Source of the DNA: Deuterostichococcus epilithicus
Taxonomy: Eukaryota > Chlorophyta > Trebouxiophyceae > Prasiolales > Stichococcaceae
Reading direction: 5' to 3'
Length of the DNA: 64,000 nucleotides
NCBI GenBank assembly: GCA_033439295.1
Contig: JAVTLE010000016.1
Location: 372,001 to 436,000, forward strand
A model generated the notes under the pieces. It saw only the letters and a list, made by a program, of their open reading frames with translations, did no database searches and was not told the origin of the DNA. The translations under genes and the position numbers were made by a program. Below are positions 1 through 62,310 of this stretch, piece after piece. Numbering within the stretch: the stretch's first letter is position 1; each line of letters starts with the position of its first letter.

Positions 1-3000
1 AGCCACAATGCATACCGGCTAGGGCCGCCACCAGCACGACGCCAGCCGACAGCACGGCTATGACGGCCACCGTGCCGGCTGTGATGCCCTTCCTGCGCCT
101 GCGAGCAGTTGAACACTGCAATCAGGCATTTCCCACCAAGGGGTGAGTGCGGGGCATAGTCCCTGAGGTGGTTGTCACAGGCAATCAATGCTCAAACAAG
201 TTAGGGCTTCCTATCAAACAAGACAGTTGGAGCACAAGTAGACCAGTGGGTTCCGGATGATGCGGCAGTGCTGCTTGCTGCATGCTGCACAGCCTGCGAC
301 TGTGAAAATAGGGCTATCGACGAATCTGCACTCACCGTTCAGAGAAGCCGGACCCAAAGGCGGTCTCCTCATCCCCAGGCAGCGGCGGGTCGTTGGCGCT
401 CCCCACGACTGTGCCATTAGTCGTCATCTGCACGTTGGTAAGGTGTTGTGAGGCGTCAGCTGCCAGTTGTAGCGACACAGCTGCGATCGACTCCACACAA
501 TAGCGCTGAGCCGCCGAAGGCGGCATGACGGCAGGCTGTTGAATTGCTTGCTCTCTGGCCAGGTGCGTGTGTGGGGGCCAAAGGTTGTTTCCGCCTCTGA
601 CACGATGCACAATGGGCTAGAGGACTGGACTGGACTGGACTGGACTGGACTGGATACTCTTATTCAGGCAAGGATGAAGCTCGTGAAATCAAACTCACAT
701 AAACTGTCTGAGCTGCCTGGAACCACATGCGCATGGGCACGCGGAGGGGAGCCGATGCGTTCGGGAGCCTCGGCGCCACCTGCGGGCCGACAGGAGCAGT
801 GCGAGTCGAGAAGCGTCGGGTAGAATCATCGGAGTAGCAGGACGCCCGTTGAGGGCCGGAACGGCCCAACAGCTGTCCGGGCGCAGCCGTTGGGCAGCAG
901 CTCCGCGCAGCAGGCAAGATTGGGGAGGCAGCAGAAGCCTCTAGGGTATCCCAAGGGGCAGGAGTGCCGGCAGCGGGCGGTGACAGGCGACGCCGCCCAG
1001 AGGCGCCGCCGCCGCCACGGAAGCATCACCCACCTCCTGCCAGAAGGCGGACGGTCGAAAGTCACCCCCTGCCGCCTGCAGCCACACTGCCGCCTGCACG
1101 GCGCCCGCCGCCGTCGCGGCCTCAGCGCCCACCCTGCAATCCCATCATGAGGAAAGTCAGAACCTCTTTTGAGATATCAACAGCGGGCGCAGAAGGGCCT
1201 AGGCGAGCCCGCCGCCAACCAGCTACAGTGTAATCGATTGGACCACCCGGACTCTGCCATCCGCAGATGGGCAAGGGCCCCTAAGCAGCAGCGCCGTATG
1301 CCCCTATCAGCAACGCCTGCGATGCCCAAGCTGCGGGAAACACCGTTGGCGCAGCGACAATCACGACTGTGATCGTCCGCCTGGTTCTGCCTTGTTCGAG
1401 TCCCCGGTAGGAACTGCATGGGGGTGGACGGCCCGACATGTGTTGACCAAACGCTGGCGAGCACAAGCAAGCAGGGCTGCAAGCCGGAGCATTTACGCAA
1501 CACAATGCGCACACCCTTCAACAGCCTGGGCTGAGGCGGCCTGCCACGATGTCACGTTTGCTGACAGCAGCGGCCGCCCGGCGTCCGCAGCGGCGCGCCG
1601 CAGCGCCAGCAGCAGCGCCGTCTGGACGCCGATGGTGCCCGGCAGCAGGCCGACGCCCCCCACCTGTGGTAGCACGCGGTATGCGTGGGTCGAGGGTGGA
1701 CGGAAAGCGGGCCCGCATCGTTTCTGGGTGACGAGCGGCTGGTCGTCAATGGAAGAGCATTGCGAGGTACTTGTTGCCTGTTGGTGAAGGCATTTCGAGG
1801 CGGCGGGAGCCGGCCTGGGTGCGCTGGCCACTTGCTGCTGTGGTGAGGTGCAGCAATCTGGGAGCTGCAGGCAGCGAACAGCATGCTGTTGCAGAGCGTA
1901 CCAGCAGCTGCGTCCTGCAGGAAGCGGTCAGGGCGGCGAAGTCCGGCCCTCCTTTCGCCTCCTCTGTCACCGCCGCCGCCGCCTCCGTCGGCAGCGGCCC
2001 CACGGACAGGGGTGTCACTCGGACGTCGAGCCCCCTCTGCGGCAAGGACAGCGGCGTCTGAGCTGGCGTGAGTGGCCCGATGCCCGGGATGCCAGGGTAC
2101 AGCCGATACAGGCGCGGCGAGCGTGCACGATGCTCCACAGCGCGGCGGCCCGGCCCCGCCGGCAGGGTCCCGGGCCAGCCAACAGGGGTGCTCCTCGCAG
2201 CCAGCACATTCTGCAGACTGCGAGGCGCAGACGCTGTTGTGCAGGTGCAGCAGGGGGCGCCTTATGCGGTGGTTGTGAGACACCGTCCTTGCGGCCAACG
2301 TGCGGGACAGCCCGGCGGGCGCATCCTGGCTGCCTTGTCTCGGAGGCATAAGCTGAGTCCCAGCGCAGAGGCTGGAGGAGTCGCACCGCCCGGATGCGGG
2401 CCGTGAGCTCCGCTGCAGGCGGCGCCAGGTGCCGGTCCAACAGTGCGGCTACCGTAGCGGCATCCCCGCCCGGCGCCGCATACAGCACTGCCTCCTCGTC
2501 GACAGACTCCAGGGCCGCCATGCCTGCAGCGGGGTAACCTACGGGCTTCAGGGTTTTGGCGGCACCGCTCGTGCGCAGGACTGGTGGGGTGTATCCGGGG
2601 ATACATATGGAAGAAGGACGGAATGGCTGTTGCACAAAGCGCCAGCTCTGCGGGCAGCTGCAGCGGAGCGAGAGGAGGTGCATGCTTTGGCCCAATGGGC
2701 CTGCGGGAACAGCAGTGCGCCAGAACTGCGCATTACCTTGGTCATCACTCGGGTGCGCGGTGCAGTTTGAAAAGCGCACTGTCCCAGCCTCAGCGCCAAG
2801 CCTTGTCTCCAGCTCCTGCAGAGAGGCCGGACATGACGCTGAGCCGCGATCCGCAACATCCACCAGCAACATCCACATCGCGCAATGCAAGTGCGAGGCA
2901 TACGAGTGATATGCCCTGTCTGCCCACTGGAAAAACCCCGCCACCGGCGAAACCCCGCCATGCTGGCGGTCTGGAAGCAGCTGCTTCCGACTTGCAGCTG

Positions 3001-3592
3001 CTGCGGCAGACAGCGGATAGACGGAGAGGCTGCACGGGGTTGCGACATGCCTCTTCGATGTAGGTGCGCCAGCCATTCTCCATCTGTGCCCGTTTCTGCG
3101 CCACGCTGCGGCCTACCACACGGAAGACGCGCCGCTGGATCGGCCTGCGCACAATGCAGCCAACAGGTACGTGAATGTCTTGCGATCCTGTGCTGCACGG
3201 GCTGATGTTGAGCTTGATCAGCTGATGGCTGTGCACTGGGTCGGATGCGGCTGGCGCGCAAATGTCACATGCAAGCTTGACATCGGCACCTTTGTGCATG
3301 CAGGCTGCACAGCAACATGCTCAGCAAGCGCCCAAGGAATGTCATGAAGAACTGCAAGCCGAGCCTACCGGTAGCCTTCGGGCACGGGCCATGCCTCGGG
3401 ACCGATGGCACTACCAGCGCTGATGCTCGCAGAGTGCGACGCGGCGGCATTGACAACCTCCGGCGTGGCGATGTCGGCCTGCAGCAGAGCCCTTGCAGAC
3501 CATGCTGACTCGCCTGGCGCCGGTCTGGATGCCCGCAGCGGGCTGGCGAGCGCGAGCAGGCTCAGGAGGAGAAATGCCCGCGGCTGCGCCAT
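1..3592 (-). CDS. Receptor-like protein kinase A, ectodomain and start of TM helix (partial, runs off left edge)
   Basis: Fourth member of the RLK cluster; kinase exons lie beyond base 1. Exons in coding order: 3592-3369, 3144-3051, 2815-2737, 2523-2387, 2036-1902, 1663-1515, 1133-1034, 779-699, 427-336, 98-16 (about 391 aa). The ATG opens a signal peptide (MAQPRAFLLLSLLALAS). Paralogue-conserved blocks follow: RRVFRVVGR and GWRTYIEE in exon 2, TVRFSNCT in exon 3, ALESVDEEAVLY in exon 4, PLLSANVTSW in exon 6, FRPSAFWQE in exon 7 and AAQTVY in exon 8. The last exon gives basic residues and then a hydrophobic helix (AVIAVLSAGVVLVAALAG), cut by an intron at the same phase as in B, C and D. Exons 2 (94 nt) and 3 (79 nt) have exactly the lengths of their C counterparts, and exon 2 ends on a GC donor as in C. 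A surface receptor role is inferred from architecture; the ligand is unknown. Confidence 0.76.
622..654. repeat. (GGACT)n pentanucleotide microsatellite
   Basis: About 6.6 perfect copies of GGACT in the RLK A intron between the exons at 779-699 and 427-336. No coding role is seen. Confidence 0.95.
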
Positions 3593-5191: not shown

Positions 5192-8100
5192 TCAGTCCGC
5201 CCGCATTGCCAACGCCCGCAGCCGATCGCCGACGCTGGCGGCGCTGGGCCGCGCCGCTGGCGCCGGGTCCCTGCACTCTGCAATGAGGGCCGCCACCTCC
5301 GCGGGGCACTCCTCTGGCACGCGCACCGGCCGAAGGCTGCCGCGCACCGGCGTCTCGCCCGTCACGATCTCCCAAAGCACGACGCCCAAGCTGTAGGAGT
5401 CGGCCTGCACAGCAATGCACATGATTTTGATCTGAACTGTGCATCGCCATGTCTGATTGGAGGCCTTGTCAGAGTCGTGGTTTGTGTGCCGTGCTGAACG
5501 CGGCGCAGCTACCCTGGCAGTTAAAACTTCCTAGCACGGCGCTCCAGAACGCCGCCGCACAGCCCTGCCCGCGTCAATTGTGAACTGCTGCTGGATCAGA
5601 AGCCATGGCGCAGCATAGCTTGGGGATAAGGGGCACCCATATGTGCTCTCAAAGCGCACTCTGAGGGCAATGCTCCTGCCAAAGCACATGCGTGATGGCC
5701 CCCTGCTTGGTGTCACCTCGCAGCCCGCTTGGCAGTCGCTGCCCGCCGACTGTTTCATCGCGCAGCCACAAGGGATGGCAGCCAGCGAGAAGGCGCACCT
5801 TGAGGTCGAGCTGTGTGTGCGGCGCGGCCATCAGCAGCTCGGGAGCCGCCCACGCCAGCGTGCCAAAGTGCGTGGACACATACTCGGCGCTTACAAGCGC
5901 GGCGGCGCCCACGTCCGCCACCTTGGCCAGGCCGTCGGCCGTCAGCAGCACGTTGCTGGACTTGAGGTCCCTGTGCGGGCAGCACCGTGAAACTGTCAGC
6001 TCCGGCCTGGCGGCAGGATGGTCGGACTCCGGGCCGGTCCCTGTGCGGCAGTGGCCCAGGGCCTTTAGCCGGCAGCAGAGCGATGCCGTTGTTTGATGCC
6101 CTGCGCAGGCGACAGTGCGCATCATGGGTCGCAGCCTTGTAGGCTTGTCCGGAGGTCGGTAGGCGGTCAGCGGGAGACTCCTGGGATCAAAAACGGTTTG
6201 TGCAGTGCAACAGGCGGCAGCAGAATGGCAGCTGCAATACGGTGTGCTTAGCACACACCGCAAAAGTTTCCACAGACCCAAACAACCTGGAAGAGGGAGC
6301 TTCCAGGCGCCATGTACATGACGAAAGGTGACAGTGACGCGGCAGGCGCATGGCTGGCACCTGTGCACCACGCCGGTGGAGTGGATGTAGGCCAGGCCGC
6401 GGGCAATGTCGGCCGCGATGCCCGCGCCGCGGTCGCGCCACAGAAATTGGGCGCCGTCTGAGCTGTCCAGTGCCGCACGCAAGTCCCCACCCTGCAGCAT
6501 CACGCCTCAGGGTGTCGACAGGATGACGACAGGGCTGCTGCTGGCGTGCTGTGCTGCTGCGCTCGCCGCTGATGTCGCATTGGCAGCGGGGCAGCTGAGC
6601 CAAATATTGGCTGATGCAGCTTTGGCAGCAGCCAGAGGCCAAAAGCAATGCTCATGCCACATCAGTTCGTGAGGATGTTGTCATTCAAGGAGAATTTCGA
6701 GAAGTCATCGCTTCGAATGAGCTGCAATTTTACAGATCAGATGATAATAATAAAAATTGTCGCACCTCCATGAGCTCCATGACGAGCAGCATCTCGCGGC
6801 CGTCTGGTGCCGGCGCCGCGCCGTAAAACTGCACCACATTGGCATCGCGACTGACGCGCTCCGCCAGCTGCACCTGCGAGCCCAGCACACAGACCACGTG
6901 TTCAGCAGGAAGCAACCCGTCGGGGCTCCCGACAGCAGCTTTGCATTGAGGGGCAGCGGTAGGGCGGGGGATGGTAGCCCTCAACCTCAGCGCACAGTGC
7001 TCTGGGAAGAAAGCAACAAGATGACTGACGAGTGCCGGCATCTAGCTCTCAAGAGCAGTCTTGAGAGCGCAGCGGCAAGTCGTGCAGAGCATGCCCACAG
7101 TGGATTGATCACCTCGCGCTTCACAGCGGTGGCGAGTCCCGCTTCCAGCTGCAGCACCTTGATGGCCACATCCCGCAGCCTGTGCCGCCCCCTGTAGACC
7201 TGTGGCAGACGCACAGCATATCTCTGCAGAAGTGACCACGACTCACGACTGTCTGCAACAAAAGTCGATCTGAAGACTTGGCGCTGTGCTCGACCAGCAT
7301 TGATACAACCCGAGGAACCCATGTGCAGGACCAGACCTGGCAAATCAGCGATTACACGTGCAAGCTCAGACTCAGGAAGCAGTTCGGGATATAGCAAGAG
7401 CGCGATGCCTTGAAAGCAGCAGCGCCACTACTCGCGTCCTGTGAGTCTGTCGTGAGGATCTGAGCCGCAAGGCATACCGTGCTGAAGGCGCCGCCGCCCA
7501 ACACAACGCGGTGGCCGTCGGCAGCAATGCACATCTCGATCTCTGACACATCCAGCTGCGGCGCCCGGCCGCCGCCTGCGAGCTGTCGCAGCGNCACCGA
7601 CGCCCCCCCCGCGCGCGCCGCCGGCCGACCCCCACAGGGCCTCGACTGGCTTGTAGCGGTTGCCGCCACCCGCCTGCAGCGCACAGCCCAAGCTGAGGGA
7701 TCCTGCACAAGTGCAAGAGGGATCATGCGGTACTGGGTCCTAGTGGCCGCATCATGACTGCAGCCTGCGGCCTGCTGGCACGACAGCCTCTGGCATGCCA
7801 AGGCAGGGCGGAAGGGCATGCAACGGCACAACATGCAGCTCGCACAGCTGGCGTAGCGCATACGGGAGCCGCCGCAGTGACATGCCGAGGGGGTAGACGG
7901 CATTTCGGGCAAGGCCATATGCATCCTCACCGGCCCCCTGCCAGATTTGATGTCAACGGAGGACATGCCGCTGCTGAAGGAGCTGCTGCCGTAGGACTCG
8001 ATGGCACCAGCTGCACCTGCTGCCTCTGCTTCCCTTTGCTGTGTGTGCGCCCGTGATCGCCGCACAAGGAGCAGCACCGCCAGTGCTGCAGAGCAAAAGC

Positions 8101-11080
8101 CAGCCGCAGGCTCATCAGTTCGGGAGGGCTGTTCAGACACTGTGACCCCCTGGAGGACTGCAAGCTTCAGAGCCGACACTTTTTGTTGCGCTGGCCTCCC
8201 CAGCTTTTACTCCCAGCCTGCGCATAGATGCCCTGCCCAGGGCGATGACGCAACATCTACAAGTTGTATTGCAGCGGTCGGATCTAAACCCGGCTGGGAG
8301 GGTGCTATGAAACTGGTTGGTCGCCAGTGCAGAAGTAAGGCAACTTATACACGACACATTGCAGGAAATCCTTGGGAGTTGCTGGAGCACATGAGGCGAG
8401 TCTGCAAGCGAGCTCAACTGAGCAAGCGAATTGCTTCCATTGTACACATGCACATGCTGAGCACTTGCTCGATGATACTTACCAGATGCAAGCACGGCAG
8501 CGAGGACGCATCCAACTGCGATGCCTGCAATAGCCCCGGCTGACAGGCCGCTCGCGCCGCTGCGACAGGAGGGCTTGATTAAGAGCAAGCCGACGGTCAT
8601 CATGCCTTGCGGGTTGAGGGCAGCTCAACCGTGTAGACAATGCAATGACGCGAACAGTTGGCTGAGGGCACCTGACTGAGCCGGCTGGCAGCGGATCCAA
8701 TACTGTTGCCACATGAGTGCCGTTGTAGCTCACCTTGAAAAAAGCAGAACGCACTGATTCTCACCCTTCTTAACGTCACACAGACTAACGGGTGGAGCAG
8801 ATGCAGCTTGGGCACAGCAGCTGTCATGTAATTGTATGTAAGTCTGCTTTGGCAGGCGGCTGGGGTGCCTCACCAGAGTAGTTGTGGCATTGAGGTACTT
8901 GGCTGTGAGGTTGAGAGGCCCAACAGACTCAAGTGTGCGGTTGTCAATAACGCTTTGCCAGAAGACAGATGGCATGAAGTGAGCGTCATCGCTTTCGGTC
9001 CAAACATTCACTGTCAGAGCTGGCACCGCGCTCTGCGCCAGCTTCCTGCGGTGGCAAAAGAGTTTACAGCGACCGTCAGCTTCGCAAGTTTTGCTACATC
9101 ATAGGACCGACAGCTGCGAATTTGAACGCAGACCTTGTCACGGCGCCAAGGCTGCCACCGCAGCAACTATCAACTCTTCATGCATTGGGTATCAGACTGG
9201 CCAAAGTCAGCCTGTTTCACTGGCTGCTGTATGGGCTTGTGAAAGGCAAAACCATATGCACCCTTTAGCAGGTACAGGAGACATGCTCTTGGTGGAGGTG
9301 GCAGTGGTCTGAGATACCTGTTTTGTCGCGCCGAAGTCCCAACCGAGAATTCGGATATGTTGACGGTGAAGAGAGTGGTCATACTGGGGCGCGCTGTGAA
9401 GACTGCATATTTGAAGGCCGCTTGCTTGTCGCTTGTGAACGGCGTCAGTCCCTGGCCGGTCAACTGCATGTAGAGTCTGTCATCAGCCATGAAAGAACTT
9501 CTGCTCAGAAACTGAGAGATAAGCTGCAGAGCTGCAGCAATCGCCCTCGACCAGGAATTCTCAGATGACAGGCATCAAGTGACTGGAGTCTCCCTGCCCA
9601 TGCGTCATGGCGCCTATCATCTTATCTGGAATTTGATGGTGGCAGGGAGCAAGCCCTCGCGCAGGTGCACAGGCGAGCAACTTTGCAATGAACACTTGTC
9701 AGCCGTGATTTTCAGCCAACTGCCTTGTCACGAGCGGCCCTCAACGGAAAGGAAACGAAAAACTGCGGCGCCTTGACAGTCGCGCACCACGCCTCACTGC
9801 TCTTTCAACCTCATGTAGCTACGTTTGCAGGCTCACAGAGGATCAACATGCTCGACCAATCAGGAGGGCACCTGGATGCTGGAGAGAGTCAGGGCGTGAA
9901 GACGCCCGCTGTCACTGGCTGTGATCACCTCCTCAGCCGCACGTTGTGCAGGCGACACCAGAAAGCGTTGCTCCTCTGGCAGGATGTGCGCGCGGATGCT
10001 AGCCTGCACGCAGCATTATTGGGTGCCCTTCAGACCGCTGTGATGCGCTCTAAGTGGCACTTGTTGCGGCGGGGGCGTGAGAGCATCAGCCGATACCCTG
10101 ACTGGACTACAAGGTGATGGAAGATGGCCTGCATGATGTGCCACATCATTTGCAGGTTGTGACCAGGTTTTCGCATAGAAAAGCATCAGAAGCGCACATT
10201 GGTCAAAATCAGCTGGCTGACAAGCTGGTAATTCGCGTATAGAATGCTGGGTGGCACCGCAAATGCCTCCACGTCCAGCGACTCCAGAAAGTACACCTCG
10301 ATCTCATACACGACCGAGCTGTTAAAGCCTGTGCATGAGGCGCACCGCATATCAAAATCAGGCGCATCGCATCATGTGCCAGGGTTGCAAGACTCTGGTT
10401 CACTTCGAAGCACAGGAACTGCTCATTGTTCAAGAAACTCTTATTTCCCGAGAATTACCGCCACACAGCAGGGAAGGCGCTGCAAGCCGGCCGCCCATCA
10501 GCCGGGCAGCCGACAACTACATGTTCTCGCTGTGGCGCACCTGGCGTGATGGCAGGGTAAGTCGTGTAGTTAGCCCAGCGGACAGCTCCGGTGGCGTGGA
10601 TGATCTGCACGCGCATGATGACTGTGGGCGGAGTCTGGATCGGTGACTTGCATGAGCTTGGTGCACAGCAGCTTTCCATCGCATTCGACACCCTCGCAGC
10701 ACTGGCCTGGCTGAAGGCGTATCTAGCCCCTCGCTCCAGGTCCAGTCGCCGAGAAACGACTTCCGGTCCCACGACGCGGTAGCGTAGCGTTTGGATCAGT
10801 CTGCGTTCACCATGCGTACGGGTCAGCTGGTGTTCACCTATAAACTCATCCCATGCGGAGCACTGGCCTGCGTACGGCACAACATGCGCTGCAGCAGCGG
10901 AGCGGTCAAGCTTGTTGACCTGAGTTCTGCCGAGGGCAAAGGCCAGCGCGCCGCATTCAGCGACGATTGACCTCGGGTAGACACTGTGCTGTTGTCCTGA
11001 CTGGACGCTGTCTGAGCTGAGACGCCGCAGGCGATCAGGAGCAGACAGGCGGCAGCAGCAGACACACTGCTTGCCGTCAT
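5192..11080 (-). CDS. Receptor-like protein kinase B (signal peptide, ectodomain, TM, kinase)
   Basis: Exons in coding order: 11080-10920, 10800-10541, 10328-10198, 10003-9872, 9511-9318, 9045-8874, 8733-8672, 8559-8483, 8085-7931, 7673-7478, 7199-7113, 6873-6766, 6491-6361, 5970-5799, 5404-5192; about 750 aa. The start chosen (MTASSVSAAAACLLLIACG) opens a signal peptide; an in-frame ATG at 11145 would lengthen its n-region. The ectodomain has module blocks YRVVGPEVVSRR, FLESLDVEAF, TPFTSDKQAAF, TVNISEFS and FMPSVFWQSV, with several Asn-X-Ser/Thr sites. The TM helix is at about residues 378-403, split by an intron. Kinase motifs: glycine loop GGGAFSTVYRG, Lys in VAIKVL, NVVQFYG hinge side, VVHRDLKSSN catalytic loop, DVG in place of DFG, AAPELL (APE) and DSYSLGVVLWE. 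The 7673-7478 exon is one base out of frame next to an N at 7594 and an eight-base C run, most likely an assembly error. RLK/TKL-type by motif; phosphorylation of Ser/Thr is inferred. Confidence 0.86.
7594..7610. other. Ambiguous base and C8 homopolymer in an RLK B exon
   Basis: N at 7594 and a run of eight C at 7603-7610 lie inside the juxtamembrane exon. The exon length is 196 nt where a multiple of 3 is needed between two phase-0 introns, so the homopolymer length is probably miscalled. Confidence 0.8.
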
Positions 11081-12007: not shown

Positions 12008-15000
12008 ATGCAATGGCGTGCGCCGACAGCTTTGCTGGCGTTGGTGCTCTTTGCGGCGGCGGCCCCGGCCGGCACTAGGGCGCTGCATGCCGGCTCATCG
12101 TCTGGCAGAGCAGTCCTGCAGGCGTCGCCGTCAGCTGTGACAGATGGGCAAAGCGCTGGCAGTGGCGAAAGCTCCCTTTCATCCAGGCTCTGGCCAGTGC
12201 CCAGTGGCTACTTGTGAGCGCACATATGCCGCATCATGCATGGCGACCTGGCCGCCCGTCGCATGGACCACGCGTGCTGTCCGTCATGCACACCTCGTGC
12301 AGTGAGGCACGCTGCTGCCGCAGCGATCACAAGCTGTCCAAGTGTCATATCACAGGCTGGCCTCTGGGGCGTCTGGCTTTGAAACATGTCATGCTCAATC
12401 CGCAGGCCATTCCAGCGAAGGGTGTTCCGTATGGTCGGACGGCACATGGTGGCAGAGCGAGCGGCAATGGAGGCAGGGTGGCGCACATACATCGAGGAGG
12501 CGAGTTGGTTTGGAAGACACATGCTGGAATATGCACACAGGGACTCGCCCTCAGGGTCCTCATTTCTCGCACTCTTATAATTGCCAGTGCCGTGCACACC
12601 CATAGGACTGAGCAAACTGATCCGTTTGAGCCTGGACGCAGGTGGTTGAAACCTTCAACGGCGATGGAGCCGGCACAATGCGACTTGAGAGCTACGCCGC
12701 ACACCTTTCAATGACAGCAGGCGAGGTCTTGAGTCGAGGTTTGCGGCATCTGTCTCCCGCCACTGCCGCTAGGCCTTTCCTCATTTGGAGCACATCACCA
12801 GCCAAGGCTTCGACTGTTAAGAGGATTTTCCAGATCACCTGCCGGCAGCTGTTTATGCTTCGAGAGGTCGTGGAGGTAAAATTGTCTGGCTGAAAACTAG
12901 TGTTGGTTTGACACCTGATGTTGGCAATCTTGAACTCCTGCGCGCCTCATTCTTGCAGGTCTGACTGCCCTGGAGTCGGTAGACGAGGAGGCGGTGCTGT
13001 ACCTAAGGTCTGCCAACGACGCAGACAGTTTTATCTTGTCGCCGATAGCGCTCACACCTCAGTACCCGGCCATCCAGGCTCGAATGAAAGCAGTGAGTCA
13101 GTGGTCGTTATGACCTTGATGCCTGCTCGGGATGTGCCTGCACATTGTCGTATCATGAATGTTGAGGACATGCAAGCGCTGCAGGAGAGGGAGAAACATC
13201 ACGTCTATCTCCGGCGTATCCATGAGGTATAAGCCTCAAGCTGAAGAAGTTTACCCGCATGCTTGCAGCAAGGGGTGAACGCAACGATCTTGGCACTTAG
13301 CAGCAATGTGGCGGAAGCACCGTCGCAAACGACAGCACAGCGGGCGGAGGGCGGCTCTGTGACCCTCAACGCCGTCGCCAACCTCAGCCTGTCAAGCCGC
13401 GCGAACATCCTGGTGCGCGAGTATCCTTGTGCGCTGATACCGTGGCACATCCTTTTAATGTATCATATCCAGTGCAAGTCGTTGATTGTGAGACAGCCGG
13501 TGCGCCTGCGCTGGCTGCAGGTTAGTGGGCCATGGCTTTTGCCAGCCGCCACAGATGTGCAGACCGCTTTCCTCTTGGGGCTGAGGACAGCATCCACGGA
13601 GGCGTCGCTGGCTGCGCCATTTCTGTCGGCAAACGTCTCGAGCTGGGCGTCCAACCCAAATGCAACCAGCGGGTGCGGTCTCGCTTGACCCATACCCAGT
13701 AGTGAATACATGCGGCACGCCGTCACAAAGGGTCTTCCCATGCCGCGATCCTGCACTGACATGTGCAACCTACCATTGCCTTGCGAGCGTATGTTGTTGC
13801 CAAGTTGTTGCCATGTATTGTTGCCAATTGGAGGCAGAGGAGGTGTTGGAGAAGGAATGTTGGACCCCGAAATTCGTGGTGAGTTGCGACGATGGGAAGG
13901 CGTATGCTGGACTGCGCAGGCCTGGTGCCACTACTGGATTGACATATCAGGTAGCGGCACAAGTGTGGTACCAAGTCGAGGGCCCAGCCATCAGCGTTCG
14001 CCCTTTTGTGTTCTGGCCAGAGGTGATCCTTGGTCCCGCCACCAACCTGTGTGCTGCCACATCAGTTGAGCCGACAGGCAGTCGAAGTCGTTGGTGAGCA
14101 GCGCTGCAAGCCCCGCGTGTTCATGGCCATGCAGTTTCAAAACACGTCAGAGTCGTCTGCTGGTCTGACGGCGCAGGTGATTCCACTGATGCCAACCGCT
14201 ACGGAGGCAAATGGAGTTCGCATGGAAGTCAGCTACCTCAACTCTCAGACACAATACGTGTGTCCTATCCCGGCCCATCTATTCATTGGCCTGCCACTAC
14301 CGTGCACAATTGCACATGCATCGCTGTTCTGACCCTACACTGCTGCCATCTCTTTCATTGATGCACTGGCGCACATACCACCAGTCGCAATGGGGCTGGG
14401 TCACGTATCGATGGACATCTCCGAAGGTTTGAAGCGTGGTCCGACATGCACGTCAACTGGATCTTTCCTGTTGCCGCAGAGGACCTTAAATGGGACGCAA
14501 ATAGACACCACCTTTGACCCGCCGTCAGTGGGCAACATGACGGGCGGCACCACCAATGGCAGGTGAGCTTTTCCGACGAGTTTCTCATGACATGTTGCTG
14601 CTGGGTTGCCTTCTCTGCACTGCCAGAAACTACTCTGATGAAGTTGCATGCACCGTTCAGAAGCTCCTGATGATGAATACACAGGGAGGATGGGGATTCT
14701 GGACATGATGTCAACATTGCAGTGGTCGCGACGCTGGTGGTAGGACTGCTGCTCCTCGTCGCCATATGCGGTGTGCACACGAAGACTCGTATACCCTCAG
14801 CTCGTGTGACTCACGACCGTCGTTGCCGGAGTCAGCTGGGTCGCGCTGACCTGCTGCTACCTTTCGTTGCTACCCGCTGACCCACTGGCTGCGTGGCGGC
14901 AAGCGGCACCGACTGTATTCGACCAGAACCCGCGATTTCCGCTGCAACTGTCCTATCTTGAATTCATGAAACATCCGACGTATCCCGTGAAACAAATCGA

Positions 15001-17597
15001 CCGCAATGCGTCTCGTGGCGCAGTGTGCGTGCTGTGCTTCAAGCGCCGGCGGCGGAGGAAGCAGCAGCAGGCAGCGCTTCTAGCGAGGCGTCCTGCAGGT
15101 GTGACAGCAGATGGGGGCCTGGCACGCAGCATCCACATAGCCGACGGTGCCGGCGGCAGCGTGGTGACGTTTGAAACGGATGCTGGCGGGCGCCGCGTGT
15201 TGATCGGGCGCGGGGCCTTCGGCCAGGTGACCGGCAGCCAAAGCATCTGTTCCTGCAGTGCCTCGAGCCGGCAGTGGCGCTGCGGGTGCTGACCTTACCG
15301 TCCTCGACTGCTGCCCAAGCTGCAGCAGGAGCTGGCCAGGCCTGGTGCCCTGAAACCCGGCCTGGACCCTTCGACTGAACGCCCCCCAGCACGGTGCTGC
15401 CAGCATTGCTGGCACATGAGGTGACGGCGCGCCCAGCAATCCAGCCTTAGCAGCCATCCCCGAGTCCGCTGCATCCCCGAGCCGCTGTCGAAGTCGTCAT
15501 GCGTGTGTGGACAGGTGTACCTGGGCACCCGCACCGGGGGGCAGCGCGTGGCCATGAAGGTGCTGCCGGCGGTGGCCGCGCGCAGCCCGGCAATGATGGT
15601 GCGGCTGCGGCGCGAGGTGGAGATCCTGCAGCACGTGTCCTACGACAGGAACGTGGTCCAGTTCTACGGCGCCAGCCTGGAGCACGCCGCCGATGCCATG
15701 CTCGTCATGGAGTGCGCCCCTCCCCCAACCCCCCAAGCCGGCAGTGCCTGCCGTGCACACTTGCTGGTTTGGCTGTGCCCGATCAGACAGCTGTTCGAAG
15801 GGGGCTGCACAGGATACGGGCTGCGACGCTGCTTGCCGTTCGACTGCGATCAGCATGCCTGAAAGCATAATCGCCATCAACGGCGCTGGCTGTGCTGCGC
15901 AGAAGACCATCTCGTGTGGATCTCTTTGACACCCCGGGCGTCTCCTGGTTTCCTCTCAAGGTACTGCGCGGGCGGCAACCTGCGGCAATTGCTGAACGAC
16001 CCGGCACAGCGGGCGGACCTGCTGTGGCCGCGCCGCGGCCGCCGCATCGCGCTGGACGTCGCCCGCGGCCTCAATTTCCTGCACGCTTCCGGCATCATCC
16101 ACAGGCGCGCCCAGCCACAAGTTTCCGCTCGTACGTATCGGGCCCCTCACCCCGAGAGCTGACACCACCCCTGCCTTGCGAGGTTGCAGCCCTGCAAGGA
16201 AAGTCCGTGCGCTTTGGCTAGTGGTGGTGCGATGGGGGTTTGGTGGAGATGCTGTGCCACTCCAAAACAGAAGGCACAGAACCTGACGATGGCCAAATTT
16301 CTTCCTCTCTGCCTCCATCGAGGTCCAGCTCGTCTTCAGGAAGCACAAACTTTCTTCCGCCTGTGCCTCACCCCTGCAGTATTGCGACCAGCAAGCGTCC
16401 GAGTGGGGCAGCTACGCCCTCTGACACCACTGCCGTTGCCAGAGATGATACAGCCGAGATCCATCCCCGCGCCCAACATGCGCAGGGACCTCAAGAGTAG
16501 CAACATTCTTCTGGACGCTGCTGGCACCGCCAAGGTGTCAGATGTGGGCCTGGCGCGGCAGCTGCTCACGGCAGCGGCCGATGCCGCGGCCGTGCCGGCA
16601 GGCACCTTCGCCTACTGCGCGCCGGAGGTCCTGCTGGGATCGGAGCCGACCGGCGACGCCGCCGCGGCCGCCAAGGTGGGCGCAATGTCGGCTTTCATGC
16701 AAGGGCAGCAGGTGGAGCAATGCTGCACTTCAATGTTCAGCCTATATAGCCTGTGGACGTGATGTCTAACGCCTCCACATGGCCATGCCGAAAGGTGGCT
16801 GCCACTGTTCGAGCCTCAGTTTCGAAAGCCCCGGGCCGCCACCACGGCCGGCGCCTGGCTGCGTCGTGCTGATGCCGTACCCTGCTGTCAACCTCGATCA
16901 CGTGCTGGCATCGTGCTTGTGTCATGCAGAGCAGCGACTGCTACGCCTTTGGCGTAGTGCTGTGGGAGCTGGTGACCGGCGAGATCCCCGTCCGCGCCCG
17001 CATGCGGTGCGTGCGGCACTGACGGTGCAACTGCGCTGCCCACGCGCTCCCTGCCTGCACAGCTGCTTGGCTGTATTGTGTCTGCATTACTAGGACAAGC
17101 CTGGAGTAGTTCGCTGTGATCTGCTTGCTGCGTGAAGCCGGAGCATTGCAAGTGCACGCCAAGCGCTGTGAAAGAAGAGGCACTCAAGCTTACTCCGGGT
17201 TCCATTCGCGCCTCCTGGCATGTTTAGCAAAGCCCTACTGCGCAGCCGCCGCAGCAGGCCCAAAGGTGTCCCGGCCTACAAATGCGCATGGCGTGAGCGC
17301 AGGGGCGTGGCCGTCGGCACCGAGTGCTGCGAGGCGACCGTGTCACTGATCGAAGCATGCTTGTCGACCGACGTCGAGGAGCGGCCCACTGCTGCGGCTC
17401 TGGTGGCGGCGCTGGAAGCGCTGCAGGGGGATTTTGTTCCGGACAGTTCGTTGACCCCGACAACTCCGCGAGACCTGCCATTTAGCTTGACGCAGCGAGA
17501 TTCCTCGCCTGAGGTTGACTGCGCCCAGGCCAACGGCAGTGGCAGCGGCGGGATGGCAGCCGCCACAGCGGCAGCGGCAGACCCAGCCGGCAACTGA
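12008..17597 (+). CDS. Receptor-like protein kinase C (complete)
   Basis: Exons: 12008-12213, 12406-12499, 12642-12720, 12959-13092, 13269-13412, 13521-13672, 13920-14022, 14102-14257, 14480-14562, 14685-14770, 15024-15226, 15515-15711, 15961-16104, 16486-16675, 16930-17006, 17303-17597. All phases close and give 780 aa. Signal peptide MQWRAPTALLALVLFAAAA. Module blocks: RRVFRMVGR, GWRTYIEE, ALESVDEEAVLY, TDVQTAFLLGLR, FLSANVSSW, RPFVFWPE and SYLNSQTQY. TM about 393-417 (VVATLVVGLLLLVAI) followed by KRRRRRK. Kinase: GRGAFGQVYLG, Lys495 in VAMKVL, MEYCAGGNL, HRDLKSSN with Asp595, DVG at 613-615, CAPEVLL and DCYAFGVVLWE. Three introns (after exons 2, 3 and 13) use GC donors. The C-terminal tail is Ser/Thr/Gly/Ala-rich. 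It starts head to head with B and ends toward D. RLK by architecture; ligand and substrates unknown. Confidence 0.88.
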
Positions 17598-18571: not shown

Positions 18572-21500
18572 TCACCCGTCGGCAATTCCATCGCCGCTGC
18601 CGCCGCCGCCACGCAACCCCTCATCCAAGCCCTCGCCGGCCGCGATGGCGAGCAGCCGTGCGACCACCTCGCCGCTGGTCGGCCGCGCCGCGACCTCCGA
18701 GTTGTTGCAATCTGCGATGAGGCGCTCGACTGCCGCGGGGCACTCCTCTGGCACCCTCACCTGAGGAGAGTAAAATGGCCTTCACCGCGACGTCCACTGT
18801 GAGCTTCATTGGGAGGCTTGGAGGTGGCGCATGTGGGGGGCCCCTGAAGGAGCATGGCGCGGCCCTGCCGGCCTGCTGTCGAGGCGCCTGTGCCGGGGGG
18901 CCCCCGCACCACGGTCAGTCAGCTCCCGGCAGGCCATCGATGCTCGGGCAAAAGTCCTTCAGGGGAGCTGGCAGCGGCGCAGAAAGCATTCAGGTCCGTA
19001 TGTATGGCTCATTGCTTTTGTAAGCTGGCAGCAATGAATTCAAATGACAATTCATCGCACCTCTCGAAGCTGTCCCCGCACGGGTAGACCCCGGGTGACG
19101 ATCTCCCACAGCACCACGCCGTAGCTGTACACGTCTGCAGCCAACCACACTCACGTCCTCTCAGGAACGGGGGAACAGAAGTCCTGGGTTCTCGGTGNGT
19201 GCAAGTCGGCAGGAGCACACGCAGACAGGGGCAGAGGCAGGGGCAGGGGCGGTGCACGGTCCCGCCGTGCAGTGTGCAGCGGATGGGGTCACCCGCAGAC
19301 AAAATTTTGTTTTTGGTGCGTGTGTGTGGGGGGGGTGGGGGGGGGGGCTGCGCTGCGCGCGCACGCTCACCGACTCTGGCACAGCACCTGTCGCCCATCA
19401 AGAGCTCGGGCGCTGCATATGCAAACTGCAGACAGCAGAAACCCAAGATCGTGATATGTCGCGGGCCTGGACGGCAGCCTGAGGCGGGTTGGCAGGCAAG
19501 TCTCATGCACAGCGTTCCCACATGAACATGAGAAATCGCTGTGACACAGTAGCGGGACAGGCCCGCACCGTTCCCACTGCCGTCTCCCAGCTGCGTGGCA
19601 AACAAAGCAGGCGCGTGTCAGATTCAGTTTCATGCCCGTCGAGCCGCACGGCGGTGTGCAGGCCGGCCTCTGGGCGCGAGCATGCAGTGGGAATGGCTTC
19701 GGGTCTGCGGCGCAGCCTGCACTAGGTTCCTGGATAGATGGGGTCCAGGGTGGAGGGTGTGGGGAGACACCCTGAACCCCTGAACCCAAAACCGCTCCGG
19801 CCCACCTGAAGTAGTCGGACACCATGGTCTTGGCCAGGCCCACGTCGCCGATCTTGGCGACGCCCTCCTTCGTCAGCAGGATGTTGCTGGTCTTGAGGTC
19901 CCTGCGGCGCAGGGCGCCGGAAAGGGCCTCGGCGCGAGGCGGATTGACCACAGGGTACGGTGGAAAAACCATGCGCGGCTGTCGGACCCCGCGCCGCCTG
20001 CAGGCGGGCGACGCGGGCCGCCAGCATCAGGCGCCACGCTCCACGCCGCACACTAGCGCGGACCCCGGCCTGTGACAACGTAGCCCAGGCCCCCACAGGG
20101 CACCGCCCCAATCGTGTACGGTTCCCCTCCCTGCCGGCCGGGCAGGAGGCAGGGCTTTGGACTGCCAGCCACTCGCCTGTGGATGACGTTGGAGGAGTGC
20201 AGGAAGTGGATGCCCCTGGCCACGTCCAGCGCGATGGCTGCCCCGGCGCCGTACCAGGACCATTCGGCGCCGTCGTGCGCCGACAGCGCGTGCCGTAGGT
20301 CGCCGCCCTACATCGGTTCACGGGGATGCTGTAGGCCTGAGGTGTTGAACATGTAAGCAGAAGCGGGCGACCGGTGTGCGGCGGGGCTTGGGAGCGTGCC
20401 GCCGGCAGGGGCTGCAACGGTGTGCCCGAGCCGCTGCAACAGGGCTGCGGAACGCGGCGGAACAGCAGCAAGCTGACATGTGAACCCGGACACCACGGTG
20501 CACTGGACGCGCGGCAGCAGGGCAGAGGTGCAGGGTGCAGGTGGGACATCCAGCACAGGGCTTCCGCCAGAGACAGTGTCACGACGACGGCTCGCTGCAG
20601 GCACCGAAACCTCTGAATATATCAAAAACACCATATCAGAAACACCAAAACACACCTCGCAAAACTCCATGACAAGCATGGCGTTGGCGGCGTCCTTGAG
20701 GCAGGCGCCGTAGAACTGGACGACGTTGCGGTCGAAGGACACGCGCTGCAGGATGGAGATCTCCTTGCGGATGTTCTGCAGCAGCATCGGGTCGGTGACC
20801 GCCGTGAGCCGCTTGACCGCCACCTGCTGCACCCCGCGTCGCACGCCCTTGTACACCTGTGCAGCATGGAGCAGAGGGCTTATCAGGTGGTGCAGCGGGT
20901 GCAGGGCAGGAACGTGTGCGGTGTCCATCGTGCGCCGCAGCGCCTCGGGAGCGCTGTGGGTTTCCCCCGCAGGAGTGCCCGGAGCGGGTCCGCGTCGCTG
21001 CGGGGCTGCATTTCCGGTGGCCGCTGCAGCGCCACGCCGCAAGGGGGATGCTTATCCCTTTGGAACATAGGGACGCAGTCTAATAGAAAGGCGGAAATGA
21101 GCCCCGCCCGCCCCGTCCATCTGCCATGGGGGAGGCGGGGCGCCGCAACGAGCATTGCTCTCCTCAAGGCACCAGTGACCCAGCCCCGACGACCCAGGTG
21201 CGCCTGGGGTGTCCCCCGGTCAGGCCCAGCTGACCGATGAGTCAGTCCAGCTGGCGCTGGCGGCCGGCACGACTAGCTCGACCAGTACTGCTGGCGGCTG
21301 GCTGCTGGCCTGCCAGGGGCCTCTGCCGGTACACAGGCGGTACACCTTAAGGGTGGCGGCGGCCGCTGGCCATGATCGCCCTGACGGTACAATGTGACTC
21401 AGCAACCCCAGCCCCCCTCAGCCAGGCGCTCTCTGGAGTGCGCAGCGCGCAAGCGGCGCCAACGTCGTTTGGCGGCCACCGCATGCGCCGGGCCCGCGGT

Positions 21501-23869
21501 GATGTGCAGGCACCGCACCTGGCCGTATGCGCCGCTGCCGAGGAGCCAAGGCTCGCCATTGGGCCGTGTGCAGATCTCGATCTCCGTCGGGTCCACCTGC
21601 ACATGCGAGGCACGAGACACGAGGTTCACTGCAGGTTGAAAGCCGGTTGAATTTGCATTGAAGCTGGCCAGCCTGTTGGCCCCCTGGTAGCAGCTTTTGG
21701 CAGTCGGAAGCCACAGGTGGAGCTTTACTAATAACCCTGCTTGAGAAGAATCATCAGTGATTCACTGGGGAAGGTGGTGAGCACCGACAAGTAGTGAGCG
21801 GCAGCGTTGCGTTGAGCAGACGTGGGGTGACAAAAGGGTTTGAGCTCACAAGAGTCACCGGCAACCTGCCCTGCGGCGAGAGGGCGGAGCCCCACGGAAA
21901 GTGAGTGCGAATGGACGGACATTACTGCGGCAAGCTGCCGTGCCGACAGGGGTGGTGTGACAGGGCGCGCGCAGGCGAGGGCGGCAGTGAATTGCAACAG
22001 ATGTGCAGCAGCAGCAAACCCGGACAGAGAGCCGCGCCTGGGCGTACCCCGGCATGGTGGCCGTGGTGAGCGCACACCGCGACCGGCCAGGCTGTGTGCG
22101 GTCGTAGGGTTAGCGGGCTCTTCTGCTGCTCTCACCTCGGCATATCCAGGCACGCTGGCGGAGGAGTGCGCGCGGCTGGTGGACAGGCCACTGCCCGTCT
22201 CCGTCTCGCTGCCCATGCTGTCGTTGGGGCTGTCGCTGGCGCTCGTCGACGCCGGCGACAGCACGCCCGTCGGGCTGCCGGCCGGCTTGCCGGGCCGGTT
22301 GACGCCCTTCCACGCCGCCGACGTGCCCTCCTGCGGCAACACAGGACATGTCAGTGCTACTGCTGTAGAGCCGACCTGCAGCAGCTTCAAAGCGAGCCAT
22401 GCCTCGATCGTGTGCAGCACATGCACCGCGGCGCAGCGCCTGGGGCAGTGCCGATGCGGGCAGCGGCAAGGCGCTGTGGCGCCGGGCCAGCGCCAGCCCC
22501 CCGGCTGCGCCCCCGCAGTCAGGGAGGGGTTAGGACCGCTGGGTGCGACCGCTAGCAGGGCAGAGGCTCCAGGCCCCACCTTGTGGATGCTGTCGTCCAC
22601 TGTCTTCACGGCGACCGGGTGCTCGCCGCCCATCCGCCGCCGGCGCCTCCGCCGCCACAGGAGCGCCAACAGTGCGCCTGGGCGCATCAACAGCAAGTGG
22701 CTTCGCCCGCCTGTTTCTGGGGGGCACATGGAAATGGGAAGGAGAGCAGAGCAGAGCCGGGAGTCGAGCCCGCAGACGCCGCATCGGCTGAAGATCAATG
22801 ACCCCCTCCCTTTCCAATAATGCCCCCAATGTCTCGACATGCCTGGTGGCAACATGATTGCTGCACATCCAGACACACGTGGTACAGGCTGATGGCCGGT
22901 CAGCGCATCTCACGCTGCGGCCCTTCGCTTTTGGGAGCTGCGGCTTGGGTTCCGCACCTAGGAGCAACACTGCTGCTACAATGCCGATGGCGATGCCGGC
23001 GATTGCACCGGTGCTGATGCCGCCACCGCTGCTGGAGGGCGCTGCTGTGGGCGCCCTGCAAAGAGGCAGACGATCAAGATGTTAATGGGGCTGGCTCAGA
23101 GAGTCAGGTCGGCGCCAAAGCGCAGTCGCCAGGATTGCCTGTCGCCAGCTGCGGCAGCAGCACGAAGGACTGACAGCAGAGAAGATGTCGAGTGCACGTC
23201 ATGCAATGTGCAGGGCTGCAAGCTCCGCTGGCAGCGACGCGTAAGGTTGCAATAAGTACGGCTGCAAGCATCGCTGCAAGCTAGCTTCCAGCATGGAAGC
23301 GAGAAAACGCGGGGCGCACAGGCTGACGCCGCCAACCGAGCTTGAGCTGGCTGCGCTGTCGCCAGCTGGGTCGGTGGTGCTCCCCAGCAGCGTGTGATTC
23401 CTCGTGTACTGCAGCCGCGGCGCACACCACACAATTTGAACAGTGATACAGGCAGTCAAGGCTCAGGTGGCACAACTGCATTGAGCTCCCGGCAGGTTTG
23501 CGGCGAAGATGTCACAGGCATGCAGCTGGGGTTGCGTCAGTCAGGACGGCGCGACAGGCCATGGTATGGAGTGCGGAAGTGGCGCAAGTCAACGCACATA
23601 GTAGCTGGTGCCGTTCTGGAAGCTCCCCGTCATTGACAGGCCGTTGGCACCCGTCGTCAGATCAAACACGCCGTCCGTTTTCAGGACCTGCGGGGTGGAA
23701 AACTGGGCATTGGCGTCCAGCACTGCACGCGATGCTTGGATGTTGCAACTACACGACTCTGGCAGGATGTGCTATGACGTGCCCTGAAAATCAGGGCACG
23801 TCACGCCGGGGGAGATGCGGAGGATGCAACATCAGGGCCAGCAGCTAGCGCCTGCCGGGTGGCTGTGGT

Positions 23870-23904
<35 letters not shown>

Positions 23905-26880
23905 TTCCAAAGTAACTCACTGGGTTCCATAGCGATGAAGCTGTGTAGTTGCTGACAGGCTGCAGCAGCGTCCACACATTTGCGTACACCCTGTCCTGTG
24001 TCTGCAGCAGTTTCCTGCGCCACACGAGATGGGAGCGTCCTCAACACGAAAGCTGTCACATAGATACGGTGTCTTGTCGCCCTGGCCCGCAACACAGCAC
24101 CTGGCGGTGCAGCGCGACAGGTTTCAATGCCAGCACTGAAGCTGTGAGATGCTTGACGATGCAGACAGTGCTGAGGCGAGCACAACGGTGCAGGCTGGAG
24201 AGCCTGCGGCCGACTTGCAGATGGCAGCAGGAGCTCAACTGCAGCAAGTGTCCAGCCGGCATCGGCTGCGGCGCGCCAAGGGGCGTGCGCACATGCTGAA
24301 AGTGTGGGTAGAGGGTGGGGGACAACCAAGCAGCGAACACACCTGCCAGCGGACGCAGGCGCGGCCTGCCAGCTGGAGACATTCAGGCTGACGATCGGCA
24401 GGTTCTGTTGGTTGGCAATGGCGATGACGGCCGACAAGAACAGGTTCTGCTTGTCGGTCGTGAACGGCAGCAGCCCATCGCCCACCAGCTGCAGGCATAA
24501 GCGAAGGGACGTGGTCAGGCAGGGGCGCCGGGAGAGGCGCCCAACAGTACTTCTGCCTCGGTCGAGTCTATGACAGTGCAATGGATCAGGCGACACTGGA
24601 CTGCAGTAGATGAGCGTGTCTCGGTGCACACAAATGCCGAAGCAGCGCTGACTCGCAGCGGAGGCACGGCTCCTGCCAATGTGGCTAAGCAGCAGAGTAT
24701 TTGCGAGATGGGCTCGGCCGCATGCAAAAGAAGATTCTAACACCAGAAGCAGGGGGCGCACCAAGATGCGAGTCAGGATCTCGGCCTGCACTTTGTCGCT
24801 CTCGCCGGCGAAGAACTGCTCGTCCTGCAGCTTTTGCCGCTCACTCTCGATGGCCTGCCCCCACAGCTGTATGAAGTTGGTGTCGATGCCCAGCTGCGGT
24901 ATGCAACAAGGTGCCGATGTCAGCTGGGGCGGCCCTTGCAAGTGTCTGGGTCCAAAGAACACATGTGCCAGAACACATGTGCTCACAGATAGCAATTGCC
25001 TATAATGACCCTGGAGGAGGGCATTCTCCCAGATCCGGCATGGGCTGCTGCAAACATCTGCCAGGACTGTGCATGTACGCCCCGCTGCAGCGGGCGGCAA
25101 GCTTTGGCCCCGACCCTGTTGCAGACCAACTGCGCGGCAATTCAAGAGGCAGCTTCCAGAGCCTTGTGCAGGACAGCCCTCGTGCAGGATGGTCCAAAGC
25201 CCCGCAGCAGCCGCAACATGTTGAATGCTATGCAACCCACCCTGTTCACGATGCCGGCGAGCGTCACACGCGCCAGGTTGGTCGTCTGCGCCGTCAGGTT
25301 GAAGCTCGCCGCGGTGGACGAGTTGCCATACTGCAGCGTGTCATTCGACGTCGCCCCCGGCGAAAATTGGTACAGGTGCACCTGTTCGTCCACCGCTGAG
25401 TACTCCAGCAGGCCTGCGCCGCGGGGCAGGTTGAGGGAGTCGGTGCATTGGGAGCAGTGACTGTACGTGCGTCGACAACCTGGCAACGGCCCATGCCTGG
25501 CCTGCATGCTGCCCGGACCGCTGGCCCAGCGATCTCAGCGCCAGCAGCACTGCGGCAACTGCCGCCGCCGGCGCAGCCGCTGCCGGCGTCGGCACCCCGG
25601 CCGCAGCGGCGGCCAGCGGCCAACGCGGCGCAACCTGTCCGCATGGGGTGCCGGTGCCACGGCAACGGACACAGCCACGGGGTGGGAAAGAGGGAGGAAT
25701 GTCCAGGGAGGGGCACGCACCCGTGTTGACGACTGGGTAGGTGGTGTAGTTCAGAAACCGCACAGTGATGTTGTATGGGTTGAACACCGTGGAGATGGCG
25801 GAGCGGTAGTAGAGCTCCATCTGCTCGCGCTTGGCGATGACCTCGGAGCCCATGATGCGCCACCTGTTGTTCGTGATCGCCCTGTGCGGATCACGAACAA
25901 CCCTAAACAACAAACCCTAAACCGGGCACACGAGGACAGCTGAGGAAATCAGGGAAGGTGATAATGCACGACTTCAGCCTGTCAGCACGCATGCCAGCAG
26001 TCAGCACAGGTCATGCTGAGGCTCAGCCGATGGCTCAGCTGACTGCTGATCAGCCCAGTGGCAATGGGGGCAACTGCGCTCATGGCGACGGGGGGCCTCC
26101 CTTTTTGCCGTGCCGCGCAGGGTGTGGCAGCGCTGCGCAGCTTCCCCACATGCAAGGAGAGTCAGCGCAGGGAAACACAGGCAGTGCAAGGGCGCACGTC
26201 CAGTTGCCTTCAAGGGGCCAGGCGTCGGGGCTGATGGCGGACACGCCGCTAGTGGAGGCAGACTGCTGCGATGCAGGCGTGTCGGCGACCTGGGTGGTGT
26301 TGTCCGCGCTCGCGTTGAAGCTGCTGACAATGATGCCGGCGAGCGCGGACGCGCTCGGGGCGCCGCTGCTGGCGGCGGGGCCCGCAGCGCTGGCCACGGC
26401 CGGGCCTGCCGCCTGCAAGCAGAACATTCGCATATCTTGTAGGGAGTGAAATATATGTCGAGCAATGTTCTGTCAGGTCTGCGCAAAGGCGCCCAGTCAC
26501 CGAAAGGTCACATGGAAGATGTGCATGCCGTTGAACAGGGTGACGGCTGACGAGAGTAGGACACTGCGCCGCAACCCCTCTTCAAGCTGTGGGGACGCCA
26601 CCCAAGAAGTGGTGAACAAGGGCATTCGTGCTCTGTGGTTGCGCTTGTGCTATGAAACCTTCGGCCAAAGCACCTCAGGGCTGGGAGCCGGGGCGGTCGC
26701 CGGGGCCTGTGCGAGAGCGCGCGCATGATTTGCTGTGCTGATAGCCAGTCTGGCGTGCTGCTCGTTGTGCGCCGTGGCATCTAGTCCGGTCGCCGCCGCG
26801 GCAGTGGCCAGCGCACACACCGCCGTGATAAGAAGCCCCGCCGCCGCCGCCGCTGCCCAAGGCCGCCGCACCAGCCCCAT
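18572..26880 (-). CDS. Receptor-like protein kinase D (complete, 20 exons)
   Basis: Exons in coding order: 26880-26674, 26412-26198, 25881-25721, 25413-25241, 24893-24762, 24488-24343, 24014-23921, 23687-23598, 23408-23320, 23055-22958, 22677-22580, 22330-22136, 21596-21519, 20856-20656, 20307-20177, 19901-19806, 19590-19569, 19425-19371, 19134-19061, 18760-18572; 847 aa, all phases close. Signal peptide MGLVRRPWAAAAAAGLL. Two ectodomain modules: WRIMGSEVIAKREQME with NITVRFLNYTTY, then LLPFTTDKQNLFLSAV with VSLNVSSW and RKLLQTQDRVYANVW. TM about 450-474 (AIAGIAIGIVAAVLLL) then a seven-Arg stop. Ser-rich juxtamembrane exon. Kinase: GSGAYGQVYKG, Lys607, NVVQFYG, HRDLKTSN with Asp704, DVG at 722-724, YAAPELL and DVYSYGVVLWE. 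The 22-nt exon at 19590-19569 is needed to restore GTFAYAAPE. The HRD intron has a GC donor (gcgagt). Confidence 0.88.
19198..19198. other. Ambiguous base (N) in an RLK D intron
   Basis: Single N in the intron between exons 19425-19371 and 19134-19061, near G homopolymers. No effect on coding. Confidence 0.95.
19328..19347. repeat. G-rich homopolymer tract
   Basis: Eight G, one T, then eleven G, inside an RLK D intron close to its donor. A G-quadruplex could form on the plus strand; this is inference from composition only. Confidence 0.85.
23872..23902. repeat. (CAG)10 trinucleotide repeat just inside an RLK D intron
   Basis: Ten CAG units on the plus strand. On the minus coding strand they follow the donor of exon 24014-23921 by about 18 nt and would read as poly-alanine in the open frame if the intron were retained. 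Confidence 0.95.
25903..25921. repeat. Telomere-like CCCTAAA motifs in an RLK D intron
   Basis: Two CCCTAAA-type units separated by a few bases, about 20 nt upstream of the acceptor of exon 25881-25721 in coding sense. Confidence 0.8.
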
Positions 26881-62078: not shown

Positions 62079-62310
62079 CGCCGCCTCGGCATTCGCGGCT
62101 GGTGGGCCGCCCGGCTGCGCGGTGTGACGCCGCCTCAGCATTCTAAGCCGCTGGCCGCCTGGCTGCGAGCTGTGACGCCGACTCGGCATTCGCAGCCGCT
62201 GGCATTGGCAGCAAGCAGTGACGCCGCCTCGGCATGGGCAGCCGCTGGCTGCCCGGCTGCGGGCTGTCACGCTGCCTCGCAACTTACGGCCACCAGCTGC
62301 CCGACAGCGA
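62079..62310. repeat. Minisatellite of about 48-bp units directly after the GT90 stop codon
   Basis: At least four diverged copies beginning near 62079, 62127, 62174 and 62220, each starting with a GACGCCGCCTCGGCATT-like string. Parts of the unit (CCGCTGGCCGCCTG) match the end of the last GT90 exon, so the array seems to have grown from the 3' end of the gene. Confidence 0.8.

Follow-up and report, generated by a model that had tools for sequence, protein, structure and literature searches.

Within a 64,000-nucleotide stretch of DNA from the trebouxiophyte green alga Deuterostichococcus epilithicus (hereafter the window; C14:372001-436000), a set of four related genes, designated A, B, C and D, raises the question of what kind of protein is built from an ectodomain of unfamiliar type that is joined, in at least some of the genes, to a protein kinase. 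The window has a GC content of 55-66% in 2-kb steps, and the searched genome (46.8 Mb in 21 contigs) contains 39 exon-level matches to the light-harvesting family PF00504, which are nuclear and fit a green alga or plant. The proteins were read exon by exon since the genes are intron-rich; homology and splice signals guided the joining of exons, the gene ends are the last recognised exons rather than stop codons, and signal peptides were called from the hydropathy of the first residues. The family typified by A-D probably comprises single-pass receptor kinases with the N-terminus outside, which sense extracellular cues. The architecture, the conserved exon structure, the family membership and the kinase motifs on which this interpretation is built can be read from the sequence itself.

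A preliminary description of the window had proposed that A-D share a signal peptide, a related ectodomain and a split transmembrane (TM) helix in the same order, with a kinase in B-D, and the reading of the individual exons bears this out. All four genes open with a signal-peptide-like start, and in each the leader is followed by a W-P-V/L motif (AWPVPEGY, RWPLP, LWPVPSGY and AWPLEGNW), which in D lies in a later exon. The second of the two modules recognised in the ectodomain (module 2) is spliced through AG acceptors and GT donors with an intact frame in 4/4 genes, and its boundaries are conserved: both its start and its end are in phase 0, and a phase-2 intron interrupts the loop between strands β2 and β3 in every gene. 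A, C and D have an additional phase-0 intron within helix α2, which B lacks. Likewise, a phase-1 intron divides the TM helix in A, B, C and D and, as judged by eye, in paralogue F on contig C7; the helix is unsplit in paralogues G and J. The seven members checked in this respect (A, B, C, D, F, G and J) all possess a single TM helix followed by basic stop-transfer residues, the mean hydropathy of its 19-residue hydrophobic core ranging from 2.39 to 3.14.

Joined exons of D, C and B match the Pkinase family of Pfam above the cut-off (E-values of 1e-34, 2.3e-36 and 3.3e-30, respectively), and all three retain the motifs VAVK/VAMK/VAIK, HRDLK, D-V-G and APE. Among the best 60 of the 1024 matches obtained in a PDB sequence search with the D kinase are a tyrosine-protein kinase chain (7t6f, which we take to be JAK; 95 bits), EGFR (90), B-Raf (78), TNIK (74), two "Protein kinase" chains (2qkw and 3hgk, presumably Pto; 74) and FERONIA (72-73). 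The group to which these kinases most likely belong is TKL, without finer placing.

The order of elements in module 2 reads, from an alignment of nine sequences, as β-α-β-[RRLLQ]-β-α-β, the elements being β1 LVGDGLLPF, α1 TTDKQNLFLSAVIAIA, β2 IVSLNVSSW, β3 VYANVWTLL, α2 and β4 LSMTGSFQNGTSYY, with a β2-β3 loop that often carries RRLLQ or RKLLQ. The β-α-β-β portion lies within a single open frame in copies J and O, whose β2-β3 loop is devoid of RRLLQ. An N-x-S/T sequon is found on β2 in 8/9 aligned modules, J being the exception, and another in the last strand of module 1 in 6/6 aligned rows; these sequons fit an extracellular, glycosylated surface. Module 1 closes with a strand resembling that of module 2 (TVRFLNYTTYP), which in A, B, C and H is preceded by a linker of the RR[LP] type, and VRFLN is therefore β4 of module 1 and not, as first supposed, the counterpart of NVSSW. 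The wider proposal of two tandem modules stands in part. A profile comparison (hhalign) of the module-1 end with module 2 gave an E-value of 0.014 with the match confined to the last strand, and comparison with the second half of module 2 gave 0.005 over 18 columns, with 0/60 column shuffles scoring as high. However, the comparison with the first half (score 13.1; top shuffle 11.7) also beat all 60 shuffles, and hence the shuffle test by itself cannot single out the last strand. In A, C and D the opening half of module 1 could not be placed. Tandem homology of the two modules is thus suggested by the weak last-strand match and the RR[LP]-type linkers, but falls short of proof. A further internal repeat inside module 2 is not supported, as 22/60 shuffles scored as high as the comparison of its first and second halves. 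In the intron of gene D that follows the RKLLQ exon there is a CTG trinucleotide run (window ~23870-23905, minus strand), and in paralogue G such a run directly follows the matching exon (C7 ~366010-366040).

The assertion that this ectodomain falls outside the named families, and shows no LRR, LysM, lectin or WAK signature, has withstood wider searching. A Pfam search with 11 ectodomain constructs (7 module-2 proteins and 4 others; E up to 10) recovered no LRR, LysM, lectin, malectin or WAK match, and neither the NCBIfam nor the PDB searches yielded a credible one. The candidates discarded were Ntox22 (E 0.0085), DUF998 (0.017) and Podoplanin (0.18) in Pfam, all below the cut-offs; isocitrate dehydrogenase, a weak NCBIfam match (0.091) in a search with 9 modules; and the top match of a PDB profile search (E 0.5). 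Viral contigs searched with the module of G only gave 27 pattern matches, and bacterial and archaeal contigs searched with that of F only gave 470, none being confirmed in either case. In the open-access papers searched, no described family naming this ectodomain was found.

It is conceivable, if somewhat doubtful, that the ectodomain is instead a highly diverged form of a known receptor domain, namely SEA or another ferredoxin-like fold, which would make these proteins an algal version of a known class; the dibasic β2-β3 loop (RRLLQ) could then be cut, serving as a mechanical or shedding switch. The β-α-β-β-α-β order and the membrane-proximal place of the module, which we take to be shared with the SEA domain (PF01390), speak for this possibility, as does the dibasic RR/RK pair in the β2-β3 loop of 6/9 aligned modules (D, B, F, G, E and I), though A, C and J lack the pair. 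However, the SEA profile matched none of the 11 constructs, and no PDB sequence match was better than the E-value of 0.5 given above. Where SEA carries a GSVVV-type site, presumably its autoproteolytic feature (G-S-V-V-V), inspection by eye found none in the β2-β3 loop of the 9 aligned modules. The SEA model was also silent over the whole genome, a result that is uninformative because control genomes were likewise silent. A Chou-Fasman plot of module 2, a crude tool that gives no proof of fold, places strands near β2, β3 and β4 and renders the first helix mostly as strand, which again tells against a SEA-like fold.

The expectation that the ectodomain would prove recurrent is upheld within the alga's own genome, which contains at least 14 candidate loci, more than the four initially noticed. 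In all of these but A (13), a similar kinase follows the ectodomain on the same strand, and the ten lying beyond the window, on contigs C6, C7, C10, C11, C18 and C19, each place a related module upstream of such a kinase, that of C19:495k being known only as a search match. When the D exons were compared with the whole genome, they matched C7:365811 (E 1.2e-7), C7:323645 (2.1e-6), C7:316029 (3.3e-4) and C11:2502495 (5.8e-4), each followed on its own strand by a kinase of this kind, and the likeness is thus not attributable to chance; the window genes A (0.028) and B (0.072) were matched more weakly. The C exons in turn matched A (1.8e-5), C7:323591 (0.0017) and, weakly, D (0.09), B not being matched. 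A hand-made consensus of the members added C7:309218 (7.2e-5), C6:2118851 (0.016), C19:463200 (0.034) and C19:495616 (0.069), the locus at C19:463k reaching an independent E-value (i-E) of 1.9e-5 with the module-2 profile, and a consensus of module 1 added C18:1249758 (0.0015). The locus on C10 was opened for its kinase. Taken on their sequences, the predicted receptor kinases form a dispersed, partly clustered family to which the four genes of the window belong.

With 150 of 178 candidates scored, a kinase consensus gave at least 101 exon-level matches in the genome at an E-value of 0.001 or better. The 42 of these that score at least 40 bits are spread over 32 loci, a number that bounds the subfamily neither from above nor from below, because some loci match the generic catalytic loop only and the C10 locus that was read falls below 40 bits. 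The check for an ectodomain covered 12 of the 32 loci. One region, C10:505-593 kb, is a cluster of similar kinase exons with 6 loci at 40 bits or more, and within it L063 (C10:541-545.5 kb) has a TM helix and a possible β-α-β-β module. Phylogenetic trees contain few supported forks, these being C with A by ectodomain (100/99), E with I by kinase (100/98), and J, O and P by kinase (100/99); a single recent tandem burst giving rise to the C14 genes is not shown by these trees. The sub-branch of J (C6), O (C18) and P (C10) has HSHD or HSHEV before the catalytic loop.

The regular linkage of module and kinase also bears on a quite different explanation, by which the ectodomain and the kinase would belong to separate neighbouring genes, one for a membrane protein and the other for a soluble kinase. 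The gene models, being predicted from the genome sequence, would permit such a division, and A provides an instance of the ectodomain-TM part standing without a detectable kinase. Nevertheless, the identical order and strand in 13/14 loci, together with the TM helix and basic stretch lying between the two parts in the six kinase-bearing members checked (B, C, D, F, G and J), make this explanation highly improbable.

Gene A departs from the others in its C-terminal part. The kinase originally claimed was for B-D alone, and a search with 11 kinase exon queries detected none downstream of A at E 1 or better in C14:363001-371999 (9 kb), nor did a repeat at E 0.1; a single match at chance level (E 0.47) sits at window 204-338, upstream of the TM helix of A. 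With no cytoplasmic protein kinase domain detected in these 9 kb, A seems to encode a receptor-like protein devoid of a kinase. About 3-4 kb past its TM helix lies a 327-residue open frame (L009; C14:367621-368601, minus strand) with leucine-rich-repeat-like stretches (LRRLRLLGCSAVL, LSGLTELCISDLS, LKRLRILDLSGNP), and a low-complexity Thr-Ala-Pro repeat frame with a few unreadable positions occupies C14:363003-363446 (L009, minus strand). The want of a kinase exon in A could be seen as a sign that the cluster consists of decaying duplicates, A having lost its kinase and others perhaps being pseudogenes, such that a receptor function fits only some copies. B also stands out in this respect: no branch of the kinase tree is longer than its own (1.3), and in the module tree its branch is flagged as long (1.84). 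Such decay is unlikely, however, given that the frame and splice sites of module 2 and the TM helix are each kept in 4/4 genes and that the kinase motifs persist in B, C and D.

Several observations have to be set against the interpretation of the A-D family as receptor kinases. Its gene models are predictions from homology and splice signals, and A has no detectable kinase. Identity between copies in the ectodomain is low (27-44% to D across the nine aligned modules); the genome search with the D exons did not list C; and the module matches on C18 (i-E 0.066), C10 (i-E 0.15), C6 (E 0.016) and C19 (0.034 and 0.069) are weak. On the side of the kinase, DVG stands in place of DFG in 11 of the members read, and DMG at the C10 locus; catalytic activity is a prediction. 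The placing in TKL, too, is not firm, as TNIK, which we regard as an STE-type kinase, scores level with the plant receptor kinases among the 60 best of the 1024 matches.

With these reservations, the receptor-kinase interpretation can be spelled out as a mechanism. Behind the signal peptide would come an ectodomain made of a middle region and two α/β modules that bear glycosylation sites; one TM helix would connect it to a kinase in the cytoplasm whose catalytic motifs are retained. The ectodomain may bind an extracellular cue, such as a secreted peptide, a wall polysaccharide or a microbial product; such binding could pair the receptors and switch on the kinase, and the active kinase might then feed a MAP-kinase-like chain. 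The product of gene A, without a detectable kinase, may serve as a co-receptor or as a decoy. The receptors may, furthermore, differ in specificity, as the strong divergence of the copies suggests. The positions of the parts recognised in each gene are collected in Table 1. The N-terminal exon order of gene D is the least certain part of the models.

Table 1. Recognised parts of genes A-D in window coordinates (position 1 is the first base of the window)
Gene	Feature	Position	Strand	Remark
A	whole gene	1..3592	minus	runs past base 1; signal peptide 3592
A	module 1, second half	3149-2738	minus	
A	middle region	2524-1902	minus	
A	module 2, three exons	1663-1515, 1133-1034, 779-699	minus	span 1663-699
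A	linker	442-338	minus	
A	TM halves	97-16; -275..-318	minus	second half outside window (locus L009)
B	whole gene	5210..11080	minus	signal peptide 11080
B	module 1, second half	10805-10542	minus	
B	module 2, two exons	9463-9318, 9045-8874	minus	α2 intron absent
B	linker	8733-8680	minus	
B	TM halves	8552-8483, 8085-8021	minus	
B	recognised kinase exons	7555-5210	minus	
C	whole gene	12008..17432	plus	signal peptide 12008
C	module 1, part	12401-12505	plus	
C	middle region	12958-13092	plus	
C	module 2, three exons	13521-13672, 13920-14022, 14177-14257	plus	
C	linker	14480-14560	plus	
C	TM halves	14707-14770, 15024-15070	plus	
C	recognised kinase exons	15128-17432	plus	
D	whole gene	18644..26880	minus	signal peptide 26880
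D	N-terminal exon	26349-26200	minus	
D	module 1, second half, one exon	25871-25722	minus	β3-α2-β4, closing with VRFLNYTTYP strand
D	middle region	25414-24774	minus	
D	module 2, three exons	24488-24343, 24014-23921, 23687-23598	minus	β1-α1-β2; RKLLQ-β3; α2-β4
D	linker	23405-23328	minus	
D	TM halves	23033-22958, 22677-22625	minus	
D	recognised kinase exons	21602-18644	minus	

Elsewhere in the window there are minisatellite arrays at 54851-55022 (units of 12/60 bases) and 62047-62279 (units of 48/94 bases), and a scan of the window for tRNA genes found none.

Among known systems, the receptor-like kinases (RLKs) of the plant RLK/Pelle group, such as FERONIA, resemble the A-D family in having a signal peptide, an ectodomain, one TM helix and a cytoplasmic kinase. 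They differ in that their ectodomains are of named types (LRR, LysM, lectin, malectin and WAK), none of which was matched in the algal ectodomain, and in that the plant kinases score below the tyrosine-kinase chain, EGFR and B-Raf against the D kinase in the same 60 best of 1024 PDB matches. The TKL receptor-like kinases of oomycetes provide a parallel in the lineage-specific expansion of transmembrane kinases: the account of Phytophthora infestans reports 99 kinases with TM domains, all of the TKL family, and 16 transmembrane proteins of subfamily 4 with LRR ectodomains, unlike the algal module (PMC3019232). Kinase expansions are also on record in lichen algae, with families totalling 52 members in Asterochloris glomerata (PMC6652019) and gains and losses of kinase families in Trebouxia (PMC11523091); the available parts of these two accounts name no such ectodomain, and the comparison is by description only.

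Few RLKs have been counted in chlorophytes: the table of one review gives about 4 for Chlamydomonas reinhardtii and 2 for Coccomyxa subellipsoidea (PMC10868138). That 14 candidate loci have an ectodomain outside the searched profiles suggests that a class of surface receptors can escape counts of this kind. As a more tentative extension, green algae may have evolved a large receptor system apart from the RLKs of land plants, in which a new glycosylated two-module ectodomain was combined with a kinase of the TKL group, perhaps Raf/MAP3K-like; this system would have expanded in clusters, acquired kinase-less partners such as A and been missed by surveys based on named ectodomains. If the fold and a ligand were found, the family would offer a way into the question of how single-celled algae perceive walls, partners or microbes, and would represent an independent case of this kinase group becoming receptors.
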